Below, one piece after another: positions 2,938-35,096 of a stretch of DNA of 44,056 nucleotides. Positions within the stretch are counted from its first letter, which is position 1. Every line of letters starts with the position of its first letter. A program made the position numbers and the translations under genes. The notes beneath the pieces were generated by a model. That model was not told the DNA's origin. It saw only the letters and a program-made list of their open reading frames with translations, and did no database searches. The stretch comes from a virus. Location of the stretch: the IMG/VR virus record IMGVR_UViG_3300030616_000006, positions 1 through 44,056 of that record; one strand, written 5' to 3'.

Positions 2938-5900
2938 ATGCCTTATGAGCTTCCCAAATCTGCAACGGCGCTAGGGGAGCCCGAGGAAAAACGGGACTCT
3001 CTGTACCAGCTTCCGAAGAGTGCCGTTCAGCAGTCGCCAGGCACCTTCGATGAACAGACGGCGCAGCTTGAAGCGGCCCTTGAAGGGAAGGAGGTAGGCG
3101 AGTATCAACCGGCAAAACCGAGGGCCGTAGGGGCTCTGGATCAGTTGATAGCCGGGGTGCTTGAGGCAACCGCTACCACGCCGAGCACGGTTTCCAACAT
3201 GCTGAAAACGCAGATAGAGAAGGCGCAGCATGCGGCAACGCCGACGATTCCGATAAATTGGATTCCCGGTCCTGTCCCTGGCATGGGAATCCCAGTACCA
3301 GACTCATCCCCCGCAGCTTCTGAAATAGGGTTGTCGGAGTTGCTGAAGAAGACAGAGAAGGACGAGAAGACCGTAAAGGCGTTGGGGTTGATTGCTGGGG
3401 CGAATTTGGCAACCGTGTCCCAGTATCCGTATGTGCGCGATGAGCCGACGGGAATGGTAGACAAGGCCATGCGTACTATTGGTTCTGGAGGAGTGTCCCT
3501 TGCCGAAGCAGCAGGGCTTACATTCCTTGCGGGAGGAAACCCAGCTCCGGCGGCGTTGTTCTTCGGAGCAATGGCTGAAAGCGACACGTACCAGAGGGCG
3601 TTGAAGGAAGGGACAAGACCGGAAGATGCTGAAAGTCTCGGTGAGTTGAGGGGCGTAGCCGAAGGGGCCCTTGAGTACATCGGGCTGAAATGGCTATTGG
3701 CGAGACATGGAGGACCGATTCGCACGTTCATAGCGAGGCTCTTGGAAGAGCCGGTACAGGAAGCACTGCAATCAGGAGCGCAACATGCGATAGAGGTGCC
3801 GACGATAGCACCGGAACGTACCTCAGCTGAGATCAAGGAGGACATAGCCTATTCTGCGTTTGCAGGGTTGGTGCTTGGCGGTGGCGCTTCAAGCGTGATG
3901 AGCATGTTGGACGAGACGCACCCGGACGTAGACCGTGAGACGAAGAAGAAGATAGTGGATGGGATAGCCCCGATAGCCGAAGCGGCCGAGAAGGAGTTTG
4001 CGGAGGTCCCAGAAGCCCCACAAGGGCCTGTAGCGGCCCCGGTGGCAGAGGTGGCTCCCGGGTCCCTTAAGTTGCCCCAATCGGCAGTAGAAGTGCCCGA
4101 GTCTCAAATTGAGACAGCCACTGCTGAGCCCCAGGTTGCCCCAGGAGCGACGGAAGCCCTAGAGGCGACCACTGAGGCGAAAAAGCCGTCCGAGGCGATT
4201 GTACCCCCCGCGGAGGCTGCGGAGGTGGTCGAGAAGGGCCTGTTGAAGCAGAAGCAGATGGACCGAGCACGCGAACTGGTAGCGAAACGATTGGCGAAGG
4301 TTGATAAGTATGGAGAGGCGTTTGTCCCCGCAAAGGTGAGTGTGAGGTTGCCGAAGGCCAAAGCGGTGAAGATCAGCACCAGGAAGATTCTTCGTGAGTT
4401 GGGGGCAAGAGAGGTAAGCGCGAGAAAGAACAAGTGGGTGCCTTCTGAGACGAAGGAGGGCAAGGGGTTCAAGATGGAGCCTGCGGAGAAACTTGCCTCA
4501 ACATCAGGGCAGATGGCTGAGGTTCATAGAGTCGCCAGCGAAAAGGCATTGCTCGACCCGAAGACCGGGAAGACGAGACCTGGGTATCGGAGGCTGGCAG
4601 AAATGATGGTGGGGAAAACATCAGCCTCCCAGATGACGAGGAAGGAAGCGGAAATCTTTCTTGGCGCATTGAATCGGCTGCCGAAGCCGAAGATGGGGAA
4701 GAAGGGGCAGCTTGTCCCACCATCTATCCCGAAGACTACTGCCCTGGTAAGAACCGGGGAGTTCGAGCGGGAGTTCAAGGAGCCACGGGCCATCGAGGAA
4801 TCGCTTACGCCGCAGACGTATTACTCTAGCATCCTCGGGACCAGGTATCTCACGAAGCCGCTGGAAGAAGCGAAGCAGCGATTCGATCTTGAATATCGTG
4901 AGGCATCAAATCAAGTGGACAAGATGCTTCGGAAAATAGAGAGGCTTGGGCGAACCTCCTTTACGGAGAAGGCAAAGGCGAAGCTGACAAATCGGCCAAC
5001 AGCAGCTATCGAACGGATGCGGGATCTACTTGATAAACACGAGACCGCTCCCGAAGAACTATCGCCGAAGGAGAAGGAGGTCTTCGACTGGTTCAGAAAT
5101 CTCAACAGGGAGATTCTGAAACGGGAGAATGCTGTGCGTCGGGCTATGGAGATGTCGGAAATCAAGGAGCGAAAGGCTTACGTCCGGCACACCGCAGACA
5201 TGATGGCAAAGGAAATGCTCGAAGGGAGATACCCGTTCCCGCAGAACCTGAAATACTGGGCATCGCAACGTGTGGTGGACAAGATTCACAACCCGATGGA
5301 AATGCAGCGGAAGTTAAGCGATGATCTTGCTGGCATCTTTACGAAAGACCTTGGGCTTGCAACGAAGTCGATGTTGTGGACTGGCCTGAAGGAAGTTCAC
5401 CTTACGAAGCCGTTGAAGTTCTTCTCGGAACAGTTTGGGGCGGTGTCGAAGGACATAGCCACATATGAAAACCTCACGCCACGGGAACAGGAACAAGCAG
5501 AGAAGCAGGCCGTTCTTCCTGCATCGACGAAGAAGTGGCTGATTGATTTCGTCAATGTTCAGATCAAGGGGCAAGAGACTGACTTTGATGAGAAGGTGAA
5601 TAATTGGTTCACGAAGGGAGTTGGCTACAATCTCATAAACAAGATACTGAGGCCGTTTGGAAGAAGTCTCAGCCGAAAGCCGGTGACGAACTTTATGAAG
5701 GCCATTGGCCGGTCTACGATCTCCGGAGTAATGGGGTGGAGGCCGAAGCAGCTTATTCGCAACAAGTTCCAGGGAGTTCAGAACCTTGCCCTCTACACGC
5801 TGAAGGCCAACCTGAAAGGGTTCCTGCCCAAGACCAAGGCAATGAAGGAGTTGCTTACTGACAACCTGTTCAGGGAAACGTACACTGGGTTCGAGGAACT

Positions 5901-6690
5901 TCCACAGGGAATGCAGAAGAAACTTGAGTCGGTTTGGCTGGCTCCGTATCAGCTCACGGCGACAACGAATGTCACGAGGGCCATGAAGGTAGCGTACTGG
6001 GACACGCTCGATCTGATTACCAAGAAGAAGTACAAGGATCTCGGGTGGGCCGACCCCAAGAGGACGTACACCGAAGCGAAGGAGTTTCTTTACCCGTCAG
6101 AGAAGAAGAAGATTCTGGCTGAGATGGAACTTGGCGCAGACGTGACACAGTTTCACTACATACCGATGGGGATGCCTGGGATATTCAAGCATAAGACCCT
6201 GACGCCCCTTACTCGGCTTCAGAGTTGGTGGATGAATTACTTCACGAAGTTTCACCGGGAGGCGATTCACCGAGGGATCACAGGAGAAACACGCAACAAG
6301 TTGCGGCTTCCCTGGAGTCGTCGTATCGGCTGGCTTCGGTACATGATTCTCGGCGGGTTCATCTTGAATATGCTTGGATACTATCGAAGCTATCTGTTCG
6401 GAGTTGCCCCCTCGGCTCTCGCGCCTCCCGCGCAATTTGTCTTGGGGCTCTACATGTATCTCGTCGCACAGAGTGAATGGCAGCGGGCGCAAGCGAAGAA
6501 GAAAATGATTGAGGCGCTGAAGGTGATGATCCCTGGATATCTTGCCGTGAAGGATTGGAATGCTATAATCAGGGGAGAGAAGCCCCTGTCGCATCTGTTC
6601 TTCTATAGCAAGTGGAAGAAGAAGAAGCCCACGAGGAAAAAAAACTTTCGATTTCCCCTTGACAGGCCGAAAAGGATGAGTAGACTGTAG
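2938..6690 (+). CDS. Very large internal virion / ejection protein with C-terminal membrane segments
   Basis: 1250 residues, ATG 2938, three bases after the previous stop. There is only a weak ribosome site (AAGAAG), so coupling to the upstream gene is likely. Three short repeats of the type ELPKSA/QLPKSAV/KLPQSAV occur near residues 4, 23 and 378. Residues about 165-240 hold hydrophobic Gly/Ala segments (VSLAEAAGLTFLAGG, APAALFFGAMA) and residues 300-320 another. Residues 600-1000 are long charged helices. Residues about 1135-1185 carry two further hydrophobic spans (MILGGFILNMLGYY, FVLGLYMYLVA), and the last 40 residues are Lys/Arg-rich. The size, membrane-active segments and place in the operon fit a T7 gp16-like ejection protein. 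No transglycosylase motif was found. Confidence 0.7.
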   Translation: MPYELPKSATALGEPEEKRDSLYQLPKSAVQQSPGTFDEQTAQLEAALEGKEVGEYQPAKPRAVGALDQLIAGVLEATATTPSTVSNMLKTQIEKAQHAATPTIPINWIPGPVPGMGIPVPDSSPAASEIGLSELLKKTEKDEKTVKALGLIAGANLATVSQYPYVRDEPTGMVDKAMRTIGSGGVSLAEAAGLTFLAGGNPAPAALFFGAMAESDTYQRALKEGTRPEDAESLGELRGVAEGALEYIGLKWLLARHGGPIRTFIARLLEEPVQEALQSGAQHAIEVPTIAPERTSAEIKEDIAYSAFAGLVLGGGASSVMSMLDETHPDVDRETKKKIVDGIAPIAEAAEKEFAEVPEAPQGPVAAPVAEVAPGSLKLPQSAVEVPESQIETATAEPQVAPGATEALEATTEAKKPSEAIVPPAEAAEVVEKGLLKQKQMDRARELVAKRLAKVDKYGEAFVPAKVSVRLPKAKAVKISTRKILRELGAREVSARKNKWVPSETKEGKGFKMEPAEKLASTSGQMAEVHRVASEKALLDPKTGKTRPGYRRLAEMMVGKTSASQMTRKEAEIFLGALNRLPKPKMGKKGQLVPPSIPKTTALVRTGEFEREFKEPRAIEESLTPQTYYSSILGTRYLTKPLEEAKQRFDLEYREASNQVDKMLRKIERLGRTSFTEKAKAKLTNRPTAAIERMRDLLDKHETAPEELSPKEKEVFDWFRNLNREILKRENAVRRAMEMSEIKERKAYVRHTADMMAKEMLEGRYPFPQNLKYWASQRVVDKIHNPMEMQRKLSDDLAGIFTKDLGLATKSMLWTGLKEVHLTKPLKFFSEQFGAVSKDIATYENLTPREQEQAEKQAVLPASTKKWLIDFVNVQIKGQETDFDEKVNNWFTKGVGYNLINKILRPFGRSLSRKPVTNFMKAIGRSTISGVMGWRPKQLIRNKFQGVQNLALYTLKANLKGFLPKTKAMKELLTDNLFRETYTGFEELPQGMQKKLESVWLAPYQLTATTNVTRAMKVAYWDTLDLITKKKYKDLGWADPKRTYTEAKEFLYPSEKKKILAEMELGADVTQFHYIPMGMPGIFKHKTLTPLTRLQSWWMNYFTKFHREAIHRGITGETRNKLRLPWSRRIGWLRYMILGGFILNMLGYYRSYLFGVAPSALAPPAQFVLGLYMYLVAQSEWQRAQAKKKMIEALKVMIPGYLAVKDWNAIIRGEKPLSHLFFYSKWKKKKPTRKKNFRFPLDRPKRMSRL

Positions 6691-31180: not shown

Positions 31181-31204
31181 AATGGTGCCGCGCGGCGAGA
31201 GTCC

Positions 31205-31255
31205 GCACGGCTTGGTGATTTTGGAGACCGGGCATAGACCGTAAAGCCGGCGTGC
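31205..31255 (+). promoter_or_regulatory. Possible structured leader before the scaffold gene
   Basis: The 91-base gap (31181-31271) has no gene. GCACGGCTT (31205-31213) can pair with AAGCC (31244-31248) plus GTGC (31252-31255) across a 3-nt bulge. This could be an RNA element ahead of the scaffold gene, which is translated from AAGGAGG. No promoter is obvious. Confidence 0.3.
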
Positions 31256-31271
31256 TCACAAGGAGGCAGAG

Positions 31272-32291
31272 ATGCCAGAGGAAGTAGTTGGAGCGGAAGT
31301 AGAGGCCGAGACGGTAGAGGACTTGGGGGATGTCATAGACGACGAGACCCTCGATTCGCTCAGCTCCGAGGATATCGACAGGCTTCTCAAGGACCGCACG
31401 GTTCCTGAAGAACCGATCGAGGAGGAGGAGCCCGAGGAAGTGATCGAGTCTGAGGAACCCGAGCCCGAACCCGAGCCGGAGAAGAAGGTCGAGGAACCCG
31501 CGAAGGAACCGGAAAAGGAGCCTGAAAAGGAGCCTGAGAAGGAACCGGAGCAGGAGCCCGAACCTGCCCCGCCAGCCGAGGAGAAAGCAGAAACGCTTGA
31601 AGAACGGGTGGCGAAACTGGAGCAGGAAAAGGCCGATCTTCTCGAACGGTTCGATCGCCAGAAGACCCAGTTGGGTCGATGGAGCAATGAAATCGGCGAG
31701 ATGCGGAGGCTCCAGAAGACGCTAGATGAGACGCAGTTGACCGACGAAGAGTTCGCCGCGAAGATGGAGGAGAATCCACGCGAAGCGATTCGCATGGAGC
31801 AGCAGCGCCTGAAGGCACAGGCCGACAGTGAGGAGCTTGAGCTTCAGCGTCTCCGTGACGCTTGTGAGGAATCAGTTCGTGGACAGGTATCGGATTTCGA
31901 CGATCTCCTGCCGGAAATGGTGGAGGCCGCCAGAAAGAAGTATCGACTCGCCGACTGGGGTGTCGATGCGTTCAAGAAAGATCCGTTCCGGTTCAACGAA
32001 CATGAAATTCTCGACCTGGCACGGGACGCAAAGCTCGCAAGGTTGGAGGCCAAGCTCGCATCTGCCGAGACCGAGAACGAGGGCCTGAAGAAGAAGGCTG
32101 GCGGGAACCTTGCTGAGAAAATCAACAAGGCCGCCAAGAAACCTCCGCGAGTTGGCGGCGGATCCGGCCAGGGAGCCGAGGGCAAGTCGGCTGCGGACCT
32201 GACCGAAGAGGATCTCTCCGACCAGCAGATCGAAGACATGGATGAAAAGACCGTGTCCAAGGTCCTGAAGGAGAGGGGTGTACCAATTTGA
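31272..32291 (+). CDS. Capsid scaffolding protein
   Basis: 339 residues, ATG 31272 after AAGGAGG. The N-terminus is extremely acidic with Glu-Pro repeats (EPEPEPEPEKK and EKEPEKEPEKEPEQEP) near residues 60-100. A long coiled coil follows from about residue 105 (ERVAKLEQEKADLLERFDRQ). The C-terminus carries helices ending in KVLKERGVPI, where a capsid-binding helix would be. The position between portal and major capsid protein and the acidic coiled-coil composition are those of scaffolding proteins of podoviruses. Confidence 0.82.
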   Translation: MPEEVVGAEVEAETVEDLGDVIDDETLDSLSSEDIDRLLKDRTVPEEPIEEEEPEEVIESEEPEPEPEPEKKVEEPAKEPEKEPEKEPEKEPEQEPEPAPPAEEKAETLEERVAKLEQEKADLLERFDRQKTQLGRWSNEIGEMRRLQKTLDETQLTDEEFAAKMEENPREAIRMEQQRLKAQADSEELELQRLRDACEESVRGQVSDFDDLLPEMVEAARKKYRLADWGVDAFKKDPFRFNEHEILDLARDAKLARLEAKLASAETENEGLKKKAGGNLAEKINKAAKKPPRVGGGSGQGAEGKSAADLTEEDLSDQQIEDMDEKTVSKVLKERGVPI

Positions 32292-32309
32292 TTTCAAGGA
32301 GGCTAGGAT

Positions 32310-33092
32310 ATGGCTAAGACTGCTGTAGCAACTGGTGATGCTCTCACCAGGAAACTGTGGGATCGAAAGCTCTATCTCGACATCCAGAAGCAGTCCTACT
32401 TCACGAAGTTCGAGAGCGAGGACGGCGACAACGTCGTTCACGTGAAGAAGGATCTGGAGAAAGAGAAGGGCGACGCGATCACTTTCGGCATCCGGATGAG
32501 GCTGAACAAGCCGTTCATCGTGGATGGCCAGTCGGAAGGCAACGAGCACGCGCTCACGACTCACAGCTTTTCCGTTGCCCTGCACAAGTACCGTGTGCCT
32601 GTGCGGGACGATGGCGAGCTGACGAGGAAGAGGGCGATCTGGGACGTCGAGAAAGAGTCCCGTGCGGCGATCGTCGAGGATGCGGCGGAGAAGCTGGACG
32701 AGCTGAAGTTCACCACGTTGGGGGCGACCCTGACGCGCAACTTCTACTGCTCGGCGCTGGCGGCGTCGTTCCACACGAGTGCGAACGCTGTGGTCGCGAA
32801 GGCGGGTCTGACGACCGCGGGACCGACGAGCTGCGACATCTCGCCGAAGCTCATTTCGTTCGCGAAGACCTGGGCGCTCACCGGCGGCCTGGCTGCCGGT
32901 GCGAGGGTGCAGACTCCGCTTCAGCCGATCATGGTGGACGGCAAGCCGCACCTGATTCTTCTGATTCACCCGGATCAGAGGTTCGACCTGGCGAACAACA
33001 CCGTCATGGTGCAGGCGCATCGTGAGGCTCGTGAGCGGGGCAAGGAGAACCCGATCTTCAGCGGGGCCGATTTCATCTGGGACGGGGTGGTT
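32310..33092 (+). CDS. Major capsid protein, exon 1 (N4gp56 family)
   Basis: Encodes residues 1-261 from ATG 32310 (AAGGAGG upstream). KTAVATGDALTRKLWDRKLY, FGIRMRLNKPFIVDGQSEGN, HKYRVPVRDDGELTRKR and LLIHPDQRFDL are features of the N4gp56 major capsid family (HK97-like fold). The reading continues 12 more residues into the intron and stops at 33107, but the capsid sequence is resumed at 33818. Joining 33092 to 33818 gives ...FIWDGVV-IHSHPNIEIG... and a 348-residue protein of normal family length. If splicing failed, a truncated 265-residue protein would be made. Confidence 0.9.
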
Positions 33093-33817
33093 AGAAAGGC
33101 TGCTTGAATTGATCACCTTAAACCGAGCTATATGCGGGAAACACTTGTTAGGTTCTGACTACCGGGAGGTAAAAATGTCAGAAATAGAGTCAATCCGCAG
33201 GGAAGATCTTGAGACTGACCTCGCCTGGCTTGCAGGTTTCATAGACGGCGAAGGCAATATTGGTGTTGCGTTCCACAAGAACGATAGAAAGAACCCCAAT
33301 TACCGAGTGTTTCGTATTCATGTGAACATCTCTAACACTGATGTGTTAGCGATAGAGAAAGTGACGCGCATCCTTACCAAAATTGGTTGTTTCTTTAAGG
33401 TGTATCTGAGAAGGCAGAATAGCAAGAAGTGGCTACCCTGTGCAAATGTAGTCGTTCAGGGTCAGCGTAACGCATCGAAATTGCTTCGCGCAGTAGAACC
33501 TTTCTTAACTGTAAAGAAAGAAACTGCTCGGCAGGCAATATACGCTGCGGATTATCGCAATGGACTCAGGCGTGCTTTCAACAACCAGTGGGGTCGTCAC
33601 GGGAAGCCTATTTACGAGAATCCTGTGCTTCATGTGATGGCAGATAGGGCGCGTGAACTTGTTCACTATAGAGCGGACATACGGAAGTATTCGATTAAGG
33701 CGAGTAAGCCAATCGAACTCAAGAAACCCTCAGAGACTACACGCTTGGCTGCATTGAATGTTGAAGATGCAGAAGATATAGTCCGATCTGCACAGAGATG
33801 TGCAGCTAACACAAATG
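33093..33817 (+). ncRNA. Group I self-splicing intron in the major capsid gene
   Basis: 725 nt. The exon 1 end GGTGGTT (33086-33092) pairs with GATCACC (33111-33117), giving P1 with the U-G splice pair. CCGAGC (33123-33128) pairs with GCTTGG (33743-33748) as P3. GACTA (33735-33739) pairs with TAGTC (33779-33783) as P7, inside the R element CAGAGACTACACGC and the S element AAGATATAGTCC. CTGCAT/ATGCAG is P8, and CTGCAC/GTGCAG is P9 (33788-33793 with 33800-33805). The last base is G33817, the usual omegaG. TGAAT (33105-33109) can pair with the exon 2 start ATTCA (P10, with one bulge). It contains a LAGLIDADG gene. Confidence 0.93.
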
Positions 33818-33825
33818 ATTCATAG
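33175..33825 (+). CDS. LAGLIDADG homing endonuclease (intron-encoded)
   Basis: 216 residues. ATG 33175 follows GGGAGGT at 33164-33170; a longer frame back into exon 1 is not needed. The single LAGLIDADG motif is LAWLAGFIDGEGNIGV near residue 14, so it should act as a homodimer. Strands and helices with SNTDVLAIEKVTRILTKIGC follow. The enzyme would cut an intronless capsid gene near the exon junction and spread the intron. The gene runs through the ribozyme's P7, P8 and P9 and ends 8 bases into exon 2 (TAG 33823-33825), so its last codons are also catalytic RNA. Confidence 0.9.
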   Translation: MSEIESIRREDLETDLAWLAGFIDGEGNIGVAFHKNDRKNPNYRVFRIHVNISNTDVLAIEKVTRILTKIGCFFKVYLRRQNSKKWLPCANVVVQGQRNASKLLRAVEPFLTVKKETARQAIYAADYRNGLRRAFNNQWGRHGKPIYENPVLHVMADRARELVHYRADIRKYSIKASKPIELKKPSETTRLAALNVEDAEDIVRSAQRCAANTNDS

Positions 33826-34081
33826 CCATCCCAACATCGAAATCGGCACCGACGCGGGGGCCGGCGCTGTTCCCTACGGGAAGGGTCTGCTTCTCGGGAA
33901 GCAGGCGCTGTGCATGGCCTGGGGTCGCCGGGCGAAGGTGGTACGCAAGACCTTCGACTACGACAACGAGGTGGGCTTCGACTGGTCGGCTGTGTTCGGG
34001 GTAGCCAAACCCGTCTTCAACAGCATCGACTACGGAGTCATGGGTGTGTGGACCTCGCGGACCCAGGTTACGGACGCGTAA
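33818..34081 (+). CDS. Major capsid protein, exon 2
   Basis: Codons 262-348, beginning I-H-S-H-P-N-I-E-I-G and ending TSRTQVTDA at TAA 34079-34081. It shows the typical C-terminal region of N4gp56 capsids (DAGAGAVPYGKGLLLGKQAL, RRAKVVRKTFDYDNEVGFDW). The frame is joined to exon 1 by removal of the group I intron. An apparent start at 33800 belongs to intron sequence and is not a gene. Confidence 0.9.
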   Translation: MHSHPNIEIGTDAGAGAVPYGKGLLLGKQALCMAWGRRAKVVRKTFDYDNEVGFDWSAVFGVAKPVFNSIDYGVMGVWTSRTQVTDA

Positions 34082-34116
34082 GGTAGCGCCGTAACGAAGA
34101 AAGGAAGGTGAAGTAG

Positions 34117-34563
34117 ATGGCTGTTACTACTCACGGATACCCGGCGAATCTGCATTCGCCGATGGAGTTCCTGAAGGGTGAGAAGTTCTGCGCGGCCGTG
34201 ACGGCGGATCTGTCCAAGTCTCCGGACGGGATAGTTTCGCTCACGGACGTCATGCAGATGATTCCCACCTGCAAGGGCCTGCTGGTGACGGACGTGTTCC
34301 TGCGTATCGACGCGAGCACGACCGTCAGTACGGTTGTCAGCATTGGTGACGTAAGCGACGTCAACGGGTACGACAATGCCGTTGACCTGGCGGTCGCGAA
34401 TGGCACGATAACCAAGAGTCTTGAGGCCACCGATGCCTACGGAGTCGGCAGGCTGTACACGTCGAACGACCTGACGATCAATCTGAAGTTCGCCACGTCG
34501 AACGTGTCGGCCGGTACGCTGACGCTGATCGCCGAAGGTGTCGTTCTGGAGCAGTACGCGTAA
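34117..34563 (+). CDS. Decoration-like capsid protein, paralogue A
   Basis: 148 residues, ATG 34117 after GAAAGGAAGGTGAAGTAG. A beta-rich protein: AVTTHGYPANLHSPMEFLKG, LLVTDVFLRIDASTTVSTVV, then NVSAGTLTLIAEGVVLEQYA. It is about half identical to the next gene along its whole length (shared FLKG.KF.AAVTA, LVTDV.LR.D, L.AEGV.LEQYA), so they arose by duplication. Small beta-rich proteins directly after the capsid gene are usually decoration or cement proteins. A hairpin follows its stop. Confidence 0.8.
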   Translation: MAVTTHGYPANLHSPMEFLKGEKFCAAVTADLSKSPDGIVSLTDVMQMIPTCKGLLVTDVFLRIDASTTVSTVVSIGDVSDVNGYDNAVDLAVANGTITKSLEATDAYGVGRLYTSNDLTINLKFATSNVSAGTLTLIAEGVVLEQYA

Positions 34564-34575
34564 CGAAACGGATAG

Positions 34576-34631: not shown

Positions 34632-35096
34632 ATGGCTGCGATTACCCATGTGTATCCGGCCAACCAGCACTCGGCGATGGCATTCCTGAAAGGGAAGAAG
34701 TTTGCCGCTGCGGTGACTGCCAACGTAGCCACAATGCCTCAGCGAGCGTATGTTTCTGAGGGTGACGTCGTACAGATGATCCCGGTGATGAAGGGTCTGC
34801 TCGTGACGGACGTGTGGCTGCGGATGGATACGAGCCTGATAGCCGTGAGTGCCACGGTAAGCATCGGTGACGGGGACGGCGTGAGCGGTTACGCCGCGTC
34901 CGTATCGACGAAAGGCGCGTGTGGAATCCTGCGGAAGAGTCTCGAGGCTATCAACAACTACGGTGTTGGTAAGCTCTACACGGCGGCCGACACGATCGAC
35001 ATCAAGTGGTCGGCGGTTTCGGGTGCCGCCTCGAACGTCTCTGTCGGGATCGTAACGCTGGTTGCTGAAGGTGTGCTGCTTGAGCAGTACGCCTAA
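34632..35096 (+). CDS. Decoration-like capsid protein, paralogue B
   Basis: 154 residues, ATG 34632 after AAAGGAGGTGAAGTAG. It begins MAAITHVYPANQHSAMAFLK and ends IVTLVAEGVLLEQYA, matching paralogue A from end to end with insertions near residue 100. Both copies are intact, and both likely cover the capsid surface, for example one at each of two lattice positions. Duplicate retention is shown by the shared downstream hairpin. Confidence 0.8.
   Translation: MAAITHVYPANQHSAMAFLKGKKFAAAVTANVATMPQRAYVSEGDVVQMIPVMKGLLVTDVWLRMDTSLIAVSATVSIGDGDGVSGYAASVSTKGACGILRKSLEAINNYGVGKLYTAADTIDIKWSAVSGAASNVSVGIVTLVAEGVLLEQYA

Follow-up and report, generated by a model that had tools for sequence, protein, structure and literature searches.

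Group I introns in phage capsid genes have been published before: mycobacteriophage LittleE carries one in gp13, its major capsid gene, with a U before the 5′ splice site, a terminal G, an endonuclease of the LAGLIDADG type related to I-CreI, and splicing that has been demonstrated (PMC3706429). The same paper cites a capsid intron in Tuc2009 as well. A study of 45 introns in Bastillevirinae does not mention capsids (PMC11878797), and a GenBank-based database places more than half of the group I introns of viruses in subgroup IA2 (PMC11835236). According to a review, the ORFs of group I introns lie mostly in loops, and those that invade the core are under tight expression control (PMC3984707). 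Here we describe an insertion in the N4gp56-type capsid gene of an uncultured tailed phage, and we put the probability at about 95% that it is a mobile self-splicing group I intron with a LAGLIDADG endonuclease.

An interrupted capsid gene and its empty counterpart

The window, i.e. the whole stretch of DNA analysed here, comprises 44,056 nt of the IMG/VR record IMGVR_UViG_3300030616_000006. The capsid gene occupies 32310-34081 on its plus strand, as do the intron, its helices and its endonuclease gene described below, and lies downstream of genes for a terminase large subunit and a P22-type portal protein (Pfam and PHROG scans), an order consistent with a capsid gene. Exon 1 (32310-33092; 261 codons and a final U) matches Pfam PF13252 and the major head protein family PHROG 334. 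Its frame terminates at a TGA (33105-33107), 15 nt into the insert, and excision of the 725 nt at 33093-33817 yields a single uninterrupted frame of 348 aa that continues through exon 2 (33818-34081) to a stop at 34079-34081. The sequence-only reading had placed the disruption at 33107 and the resumption at 33818, exactly where we find them. The joined product scores 77.1 bits against the NCBIfam model for N4-gp56 major capsid proteins (TIGR04387, cut-off 60) and exon 1 alone scores 57.5 bits, below the cut-off. The insert has a G+C content of 46%, compared to 61-62% in the exons. Querying GTDB genomes with the capsid found nothing.

Scanning IMG/VR with the joined capsid protein returned 11 relatives. 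The closest, L002, is intronless, shares 89% protein and 82% DNA identity over the gene and aligns without a gap at the junction. An assumption-free alignment of the whole window with L002 gave two blocks, 31190-33091 and 33818-34570, which meet at L002 positions 5166/5168; given this break at 33091/33818, the limits that P1 and the terminal G imply for the insert agree with those deduced from the comparison. Eight more relatives (L003-L008, L011 and L012) are also uninterrupted at the insertion site, and in none of these nine does the sequence at 33093-33817 appear as capsid protein, an occurrence that would have spoken against an intron. The alignment with an intronless homologue thus breaks where the sequence-only reading had predicted the junction.

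Two further features were noticed around the gene. A 414-aa open frame on the minus strand (31872-33116), antisense to exon 1, is probably not a gene, such frames being common in G+C-rich DNA. Downstream of the capsid gene, adjacent genes at 34117-34563 and 34632-35096 encode similar products, both starting near MA.IT(T)H.YP.N.HS.M.FLKG.KF and both without a match in Pfam or PHROG. They are a tandem duplication and possibly, as a guess, encode a virion decoration protein. The first joins L002 at 5168-5937 and the second at 5452, so L002 seems to have a single copy.

Ribozyme core and covariation

The anatomy of a group I intron can be followed along the insert. P1 pairs GGUGGUU (33086-33092) with GAUCACC (33111-33117) and places the pair U33092.G33111 at the 5′ splice site; since 1.5% of random U positions would offer a 7-bp P1 with a U.G pair, P1 alone is weak proof. 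The TGA lies within L1 and is part of the P10 guide UGAAU (33105-33109), which pairs with nucleotides 1-5 of exon 2 (AUUCA, 33818-33822), with one bulged base beside P1. P3 is formed by CCGAGC (33123-33128) and GCUUGG (33743-33748). The helix reading further gives P4 (33133-33138/33194-33199), P5 (33143-33145/33188-33190), P5a (33153-33159/33177-33183), P5b (33160-33163/33168-33171), P6 (33200-33202/33727-33729) and P6a (33207-33213/33718-33724), whose loop holds most of an ORF. P7 (33735-33739/33779-33783) encloses the 3′ strand of P3 and P8 (33749-33755/33766-33772), P9 (33788-33794/33799-33805) is capped by the GNRA loop GAGA, and the final base of the intron is G33817. The pseudoknotted P3-P8 core with P4-P6 and P7 is thus present. 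The claim that nearly all helices are readable stands for those it listed, namely P1 with its 7 bp and U-G pair, P3, P7, P8, P9 and a possible P10 with one bulge, besides the terminal G; P4, P5, P5a, P5b, P6 and P6a are present too, but were left off that list.

When the P6a loop was swapped for GAAA and the ORF-stripped core was folded without constraints, the minimum-energy structure contained P1, P3, P5a, P5b, P6, P6a, P8 and P9 in full, and P4 and P5 almost in full. P7, being pseudoknotted with P3, is absent from this fold, and P10 lies outside it, as its pairing uses exon 2. With only 3 nt in J7/3, the intron lacks P7.1 and P7.2, which are typical of IA; it may belong to subgroup IB, the fungal mitochondrial type.

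The sequence-only reading expected a group I covariance match, and Rfam RF00028 indeed matches 33657-33805 with 47.8 bits (E 7.7e-13 for this genome), about 2 bits below the curated cut-off of 50 bits; at the gathering threshold the window has no match in Rfam. Together with the core helices and the TIGR04387 score of the joined product, this match bears out that a group I intron interrupts an N4gp56 capsid gene. The score falls under the cut-off because a 0.5-kb ORF splits the core, and three introns that share the core signature but have no ORF reach 69-75 bits on the same model, above the cut-off. P4-P5 was caught by RF00028 as a separate piece (33133-33246). From 33657 to about 33720, the main alignment fits spuriously to the ORF loop, the true P4-P5 lying at 33133-33199.

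Searching IMG/VR by the P7 and J8/7 signature gave at least 27 stretches and a looser pattern at least 85; a control pattern, TCAAAGACTA..., gave zero stretches, was uninformative and was left out of the results. Among the matches listed, 48 introns with both halves could be compared. Five of the six P3 pairs vary yet stay paired in 46-48 of the 48, against a shuffled expectation of 20-37. Pair 4 of P4 is U-A in 44 introns and G-C in four, the window included, and pair 3 of P6 covaries as well. The P7 pairs within the search motif are fixed by construction and therefore have no evidential value. A distant DNA search among phages gave no match.

These results bear on whether the insert might be a homing endonuclease gene that stands alone, with no working ribozyme, or an intron so decayed that it has lost splicing. 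The sub-threshold Rfam score and an ORF spanning nearly the whole insert would fit such an element, but we consider it very unlikely, as the core helices are all intact and contain covarying pairs, the insert limits are exactly the group I splice positions and the capsid without splicing would be truncated after 265 codons. Even less probable is an assembly chimera or a misjoined contig: the record is metagenomic and the insert is lower in G+C, but the two junctions coincide exactly with group I splice positions, P1 and P10 provide complementarity to the two exons and both flanks are colinear with one relative.

An endonuclease gene across the ribozyme core

Most of the insert is taken up by a gene for a LAGLIDADG homing endonuclease (33175-33825; 216 aa), on which the sequence-only reading was silent. 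The protein has one motif, LAGFIDGEG, scores 26.2 bits against PF00961 (cut-off 23.1) and leads by sequence comparison to I-OnuI and I-MsoI. An AlphaFold model built on an alignment of 24 sequences has high confidence over residues 11-130, where most pLDDT blocks exceed 80, but is poor over the final 40 residues; its best matches in the PDB are I-MsoI and I-CreI (E 2.5e-8), pointing to the I-CreI/I-MsoI fold. G25, G27, K114 and R190 are invariant in the alignment of 24 relatives, although the conservation of R190 may stem from the RNA, because its codon falls in P7-P3. A protein-pattern search of viral contigs for the endonuclease gave two weak loci only; the DNA pattern of the intron core performed far better. 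Many inteins encode LAGLIDADG endonucleases, as this insert does, but an intein-like in-frame protein insertion has a negligible probability here, refuted by the in-frame TGA 15 nt into the insert and the different frames of endonuclease and capsid, with the Pfam scan also free of any intein family.

In the group I intron, the endonuclease ORF opens within the P5a/P5b hairpin, with its ribosome-binding site GGGAGGU (33164-33170) and AUG (33175-33177) in or beside the P5b and P5a pairs. From there it overlaps the 3′ strand of P4, P6, P7, P3, P8, P9 and also the 3′ splice site, before ending after 8 nt of exon 2. Relatives also use core and ORF doubly, in varying frames: P7 is translated as SETTR, LRDYT or PQRLH, and J8/7-P7 in many cases as EDIV. 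The idea that the P5a hairpin is a regulatory element specific to the endonuclease was weakened by finding the same UAC...GU(A/G)AAAAU hairpin also where the ORF starts elsewhere; being common to relatives with other ORF starts, the hairpin is part of the intron architecture and was borrowed by the endonuclease gene.

Ribosomes translating exon 1 would stop in L1 (33105-33107), before they reach the P1 guide, so that the remaining intron could fold freely; an in-frame stop as a possible folding aid has been discussed (PMC3984707). By analogy with the group I family, P1 and P10 would align exons 1 and 2 in the transcript, a guanosine bound by P7 would attack after U33092 and exon 1 would next attack after G33817, so that exon ligation and intron release would give an intact mRNA for the 348-aa capsid. 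Within the P5a/P5b hairpin, the ribosome-binding site and start codon of the endonuclease may be sequestered in the cell. Since the ORF runs through the whole core and the 3′ splice site, full-length enzyme can come only from unspliced RNA, and its translation would compete with splicing. That the dependence of the capsid gene on splicing puts a strong selective constraint on the intron, as previously claimed, is a reasonable inference.

The endonuclease, probably homodimeric, would cut intronless capsid alleles at a pseudo-palindromic empty site, and the intron would spread when the break is repaired from the copy that carries it. The predicted homing site is a 22-bp pseudo-palindrome made, once the intron is removed, of 33085-33092 and 33818-33831. 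In the joined exons, GGGTGGTTATTCATAGCCATCC, 8 of 11 positions are palindromic around a centre 3 bp 3′ of the insertion point. This score is equalled at 0.15% of window positions, and with a chance of about 4% over the 25 offsets tried, the palindrome at the insertion point is suggestive only; as such, it would fit a homodimeric endonuclease.

Capsid genes as hosts and comparison with known systems

The view that capsid genes are a less usual home for group I introns did not hold: capsid introns have been published, and two samples from IMG/VR are mostly capsid. In the first, relatives were fetched by the intron core alone, blind to the interrupted gene, and the longest open frame adjoining the intron was taken as the host-gene fragment of each locus. 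Among the matches listed, a major capsid gene is interrupted in 38 of about 41 core-found relatives whose host gene could be assigned (20 direct PHROG major head matches and 18 that cluster with these by phmmer or visible identity, one duplicate removed), a raw count, not per gene content, bounded by the search pattern and drawn from contigs that IMG/VR recognises partly via hallmark genes. The other assigned genes encode a cold-shock protein and an exonuclease resembling RecJ, and one has a weak DNA-binding match; about ten fragments had no assignment and four loci were fungal-mitochondrial in look (again among the matches listed). The capsid families interrupted are PHROGs 1357, 267, 9953, 2263, 752, 1328, 2522 and 9206, the window's own being 334. 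An independent sample, found with a different core motif and subject to the same caveat, had 19 of 30 in major head genes among the matches listed, the remainder lying in ribonucleotide reductase, DNA polymerase or Sak4 genes, unassigned or not clearly intron-interrupted. This suggests that such introns commonly reside in the capsid genes of uncultured phages.

The intron itself appears to be an ordinary kind of element, and what appears to be new is the capsid preference of its lineage, of which we found no description in the literature searched, with incomplete coverage. Such a bias contrasts with the emphasis on DNA-metabolism genes in T4- and Bastille-type phages, and whole databases can be used to test it. 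It is a tentative and rather unlikely proposal that a widespread phage lineage of core-overlapping LAGLIDADG/group I elements prefers major capsid genes, across unrelated capsid families, and that its endonuclease benefits the carrier phage by cutting those of co-infecting intronless rivals, an attack for which the intron endonuclease of PhiPA3 offers a comparison (PMC11620839); the bias would then stem from this competitive gain as well as from selfish homing. On a practical matter, the intron and the scanned ORF-bearing relatives are missed at the Rfam cut-off, so many capsid genes of uncultured phages may be annotated as truncated. Splicing of the capsid transcript would be needed for particle building, and because the endonuclease gene and the ribozyme core overlap completely, the conflict between translation and splicing can be tested directly.

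Other introns were noticed during the scans. ORF-less inserts of about 240 nt occupy three different sites in related capsid genes (L009 ~5952-6202, L010/L042 ~864-1102 and L043 ~3270-3510), with a U before, a G at the end, a P1 with U.G and, by eye, covarying P3, P7 and P8. From these features we read them as group I introns; they have no match in Rfam even at E 10. Their P7 is GCGUA/UACGC, not GACUA/UAGUC, and six further loci (L109, L115, L116, L135, L161 and L166) have GCRUA/UAYGC with an extra G-C, A-U or C-G pair, which may represent a group I variety under-detected by Rfam. The records 3300023063_000037 and _000046 (L078, L081, L082 and L083) contain several introns with GIY-YIG and LAGLIDADG endonucleases and look like fungal mitochondrial DNA, perhaps a contamination of IMG/VR.

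I-TevI, I-TevII and I-TevIII belong to endonuclease families other than that of the LAGLIDADG enzyme here. The T4 td, nrdB and nrdD introns that encode them are likewise phage group I introns in which the ribosome-binding site of the endonuclease is sequestered in RNA structure (PMC2988022), but they interrupt nucleotide-metabolism genes, and the window intron lacks P7.1 and P7.2. I-CreI and I-MsoI share with our enzyme the predicted fold and the single motif, and would also share a homodimeric state and a 22-bp pseudo-palindromic site. Identity to them is only ~16%, however, and the window enzyme adds an 80-residue C-terminal extension, modelled with low confidence and partly encoded by the ribozyme core. 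The IMG/VR introns L015-L100 resemble ours in helices, LAGLIDADG family (phmmer E down to 5.5e-15), ORF/core overlap and their mostly capsid host genes, but differ in insertion sites and capsid families; in most of them, the ORF begins at the 3′ strand of P4 or immediately ahead of it (MDNQQ) and ends in J8/7-P7. The LittleE intron is alike in its phage major capsid gene, the bases at its splice sites and its type of endonuclease. It interrupts another capsid family, its splicing is demonstrated where ours is predicted, and its endonuclease gene lies on the opposite strand, whereas the window intron has its endonuclease gene on the sense strand, in overlap with the core.
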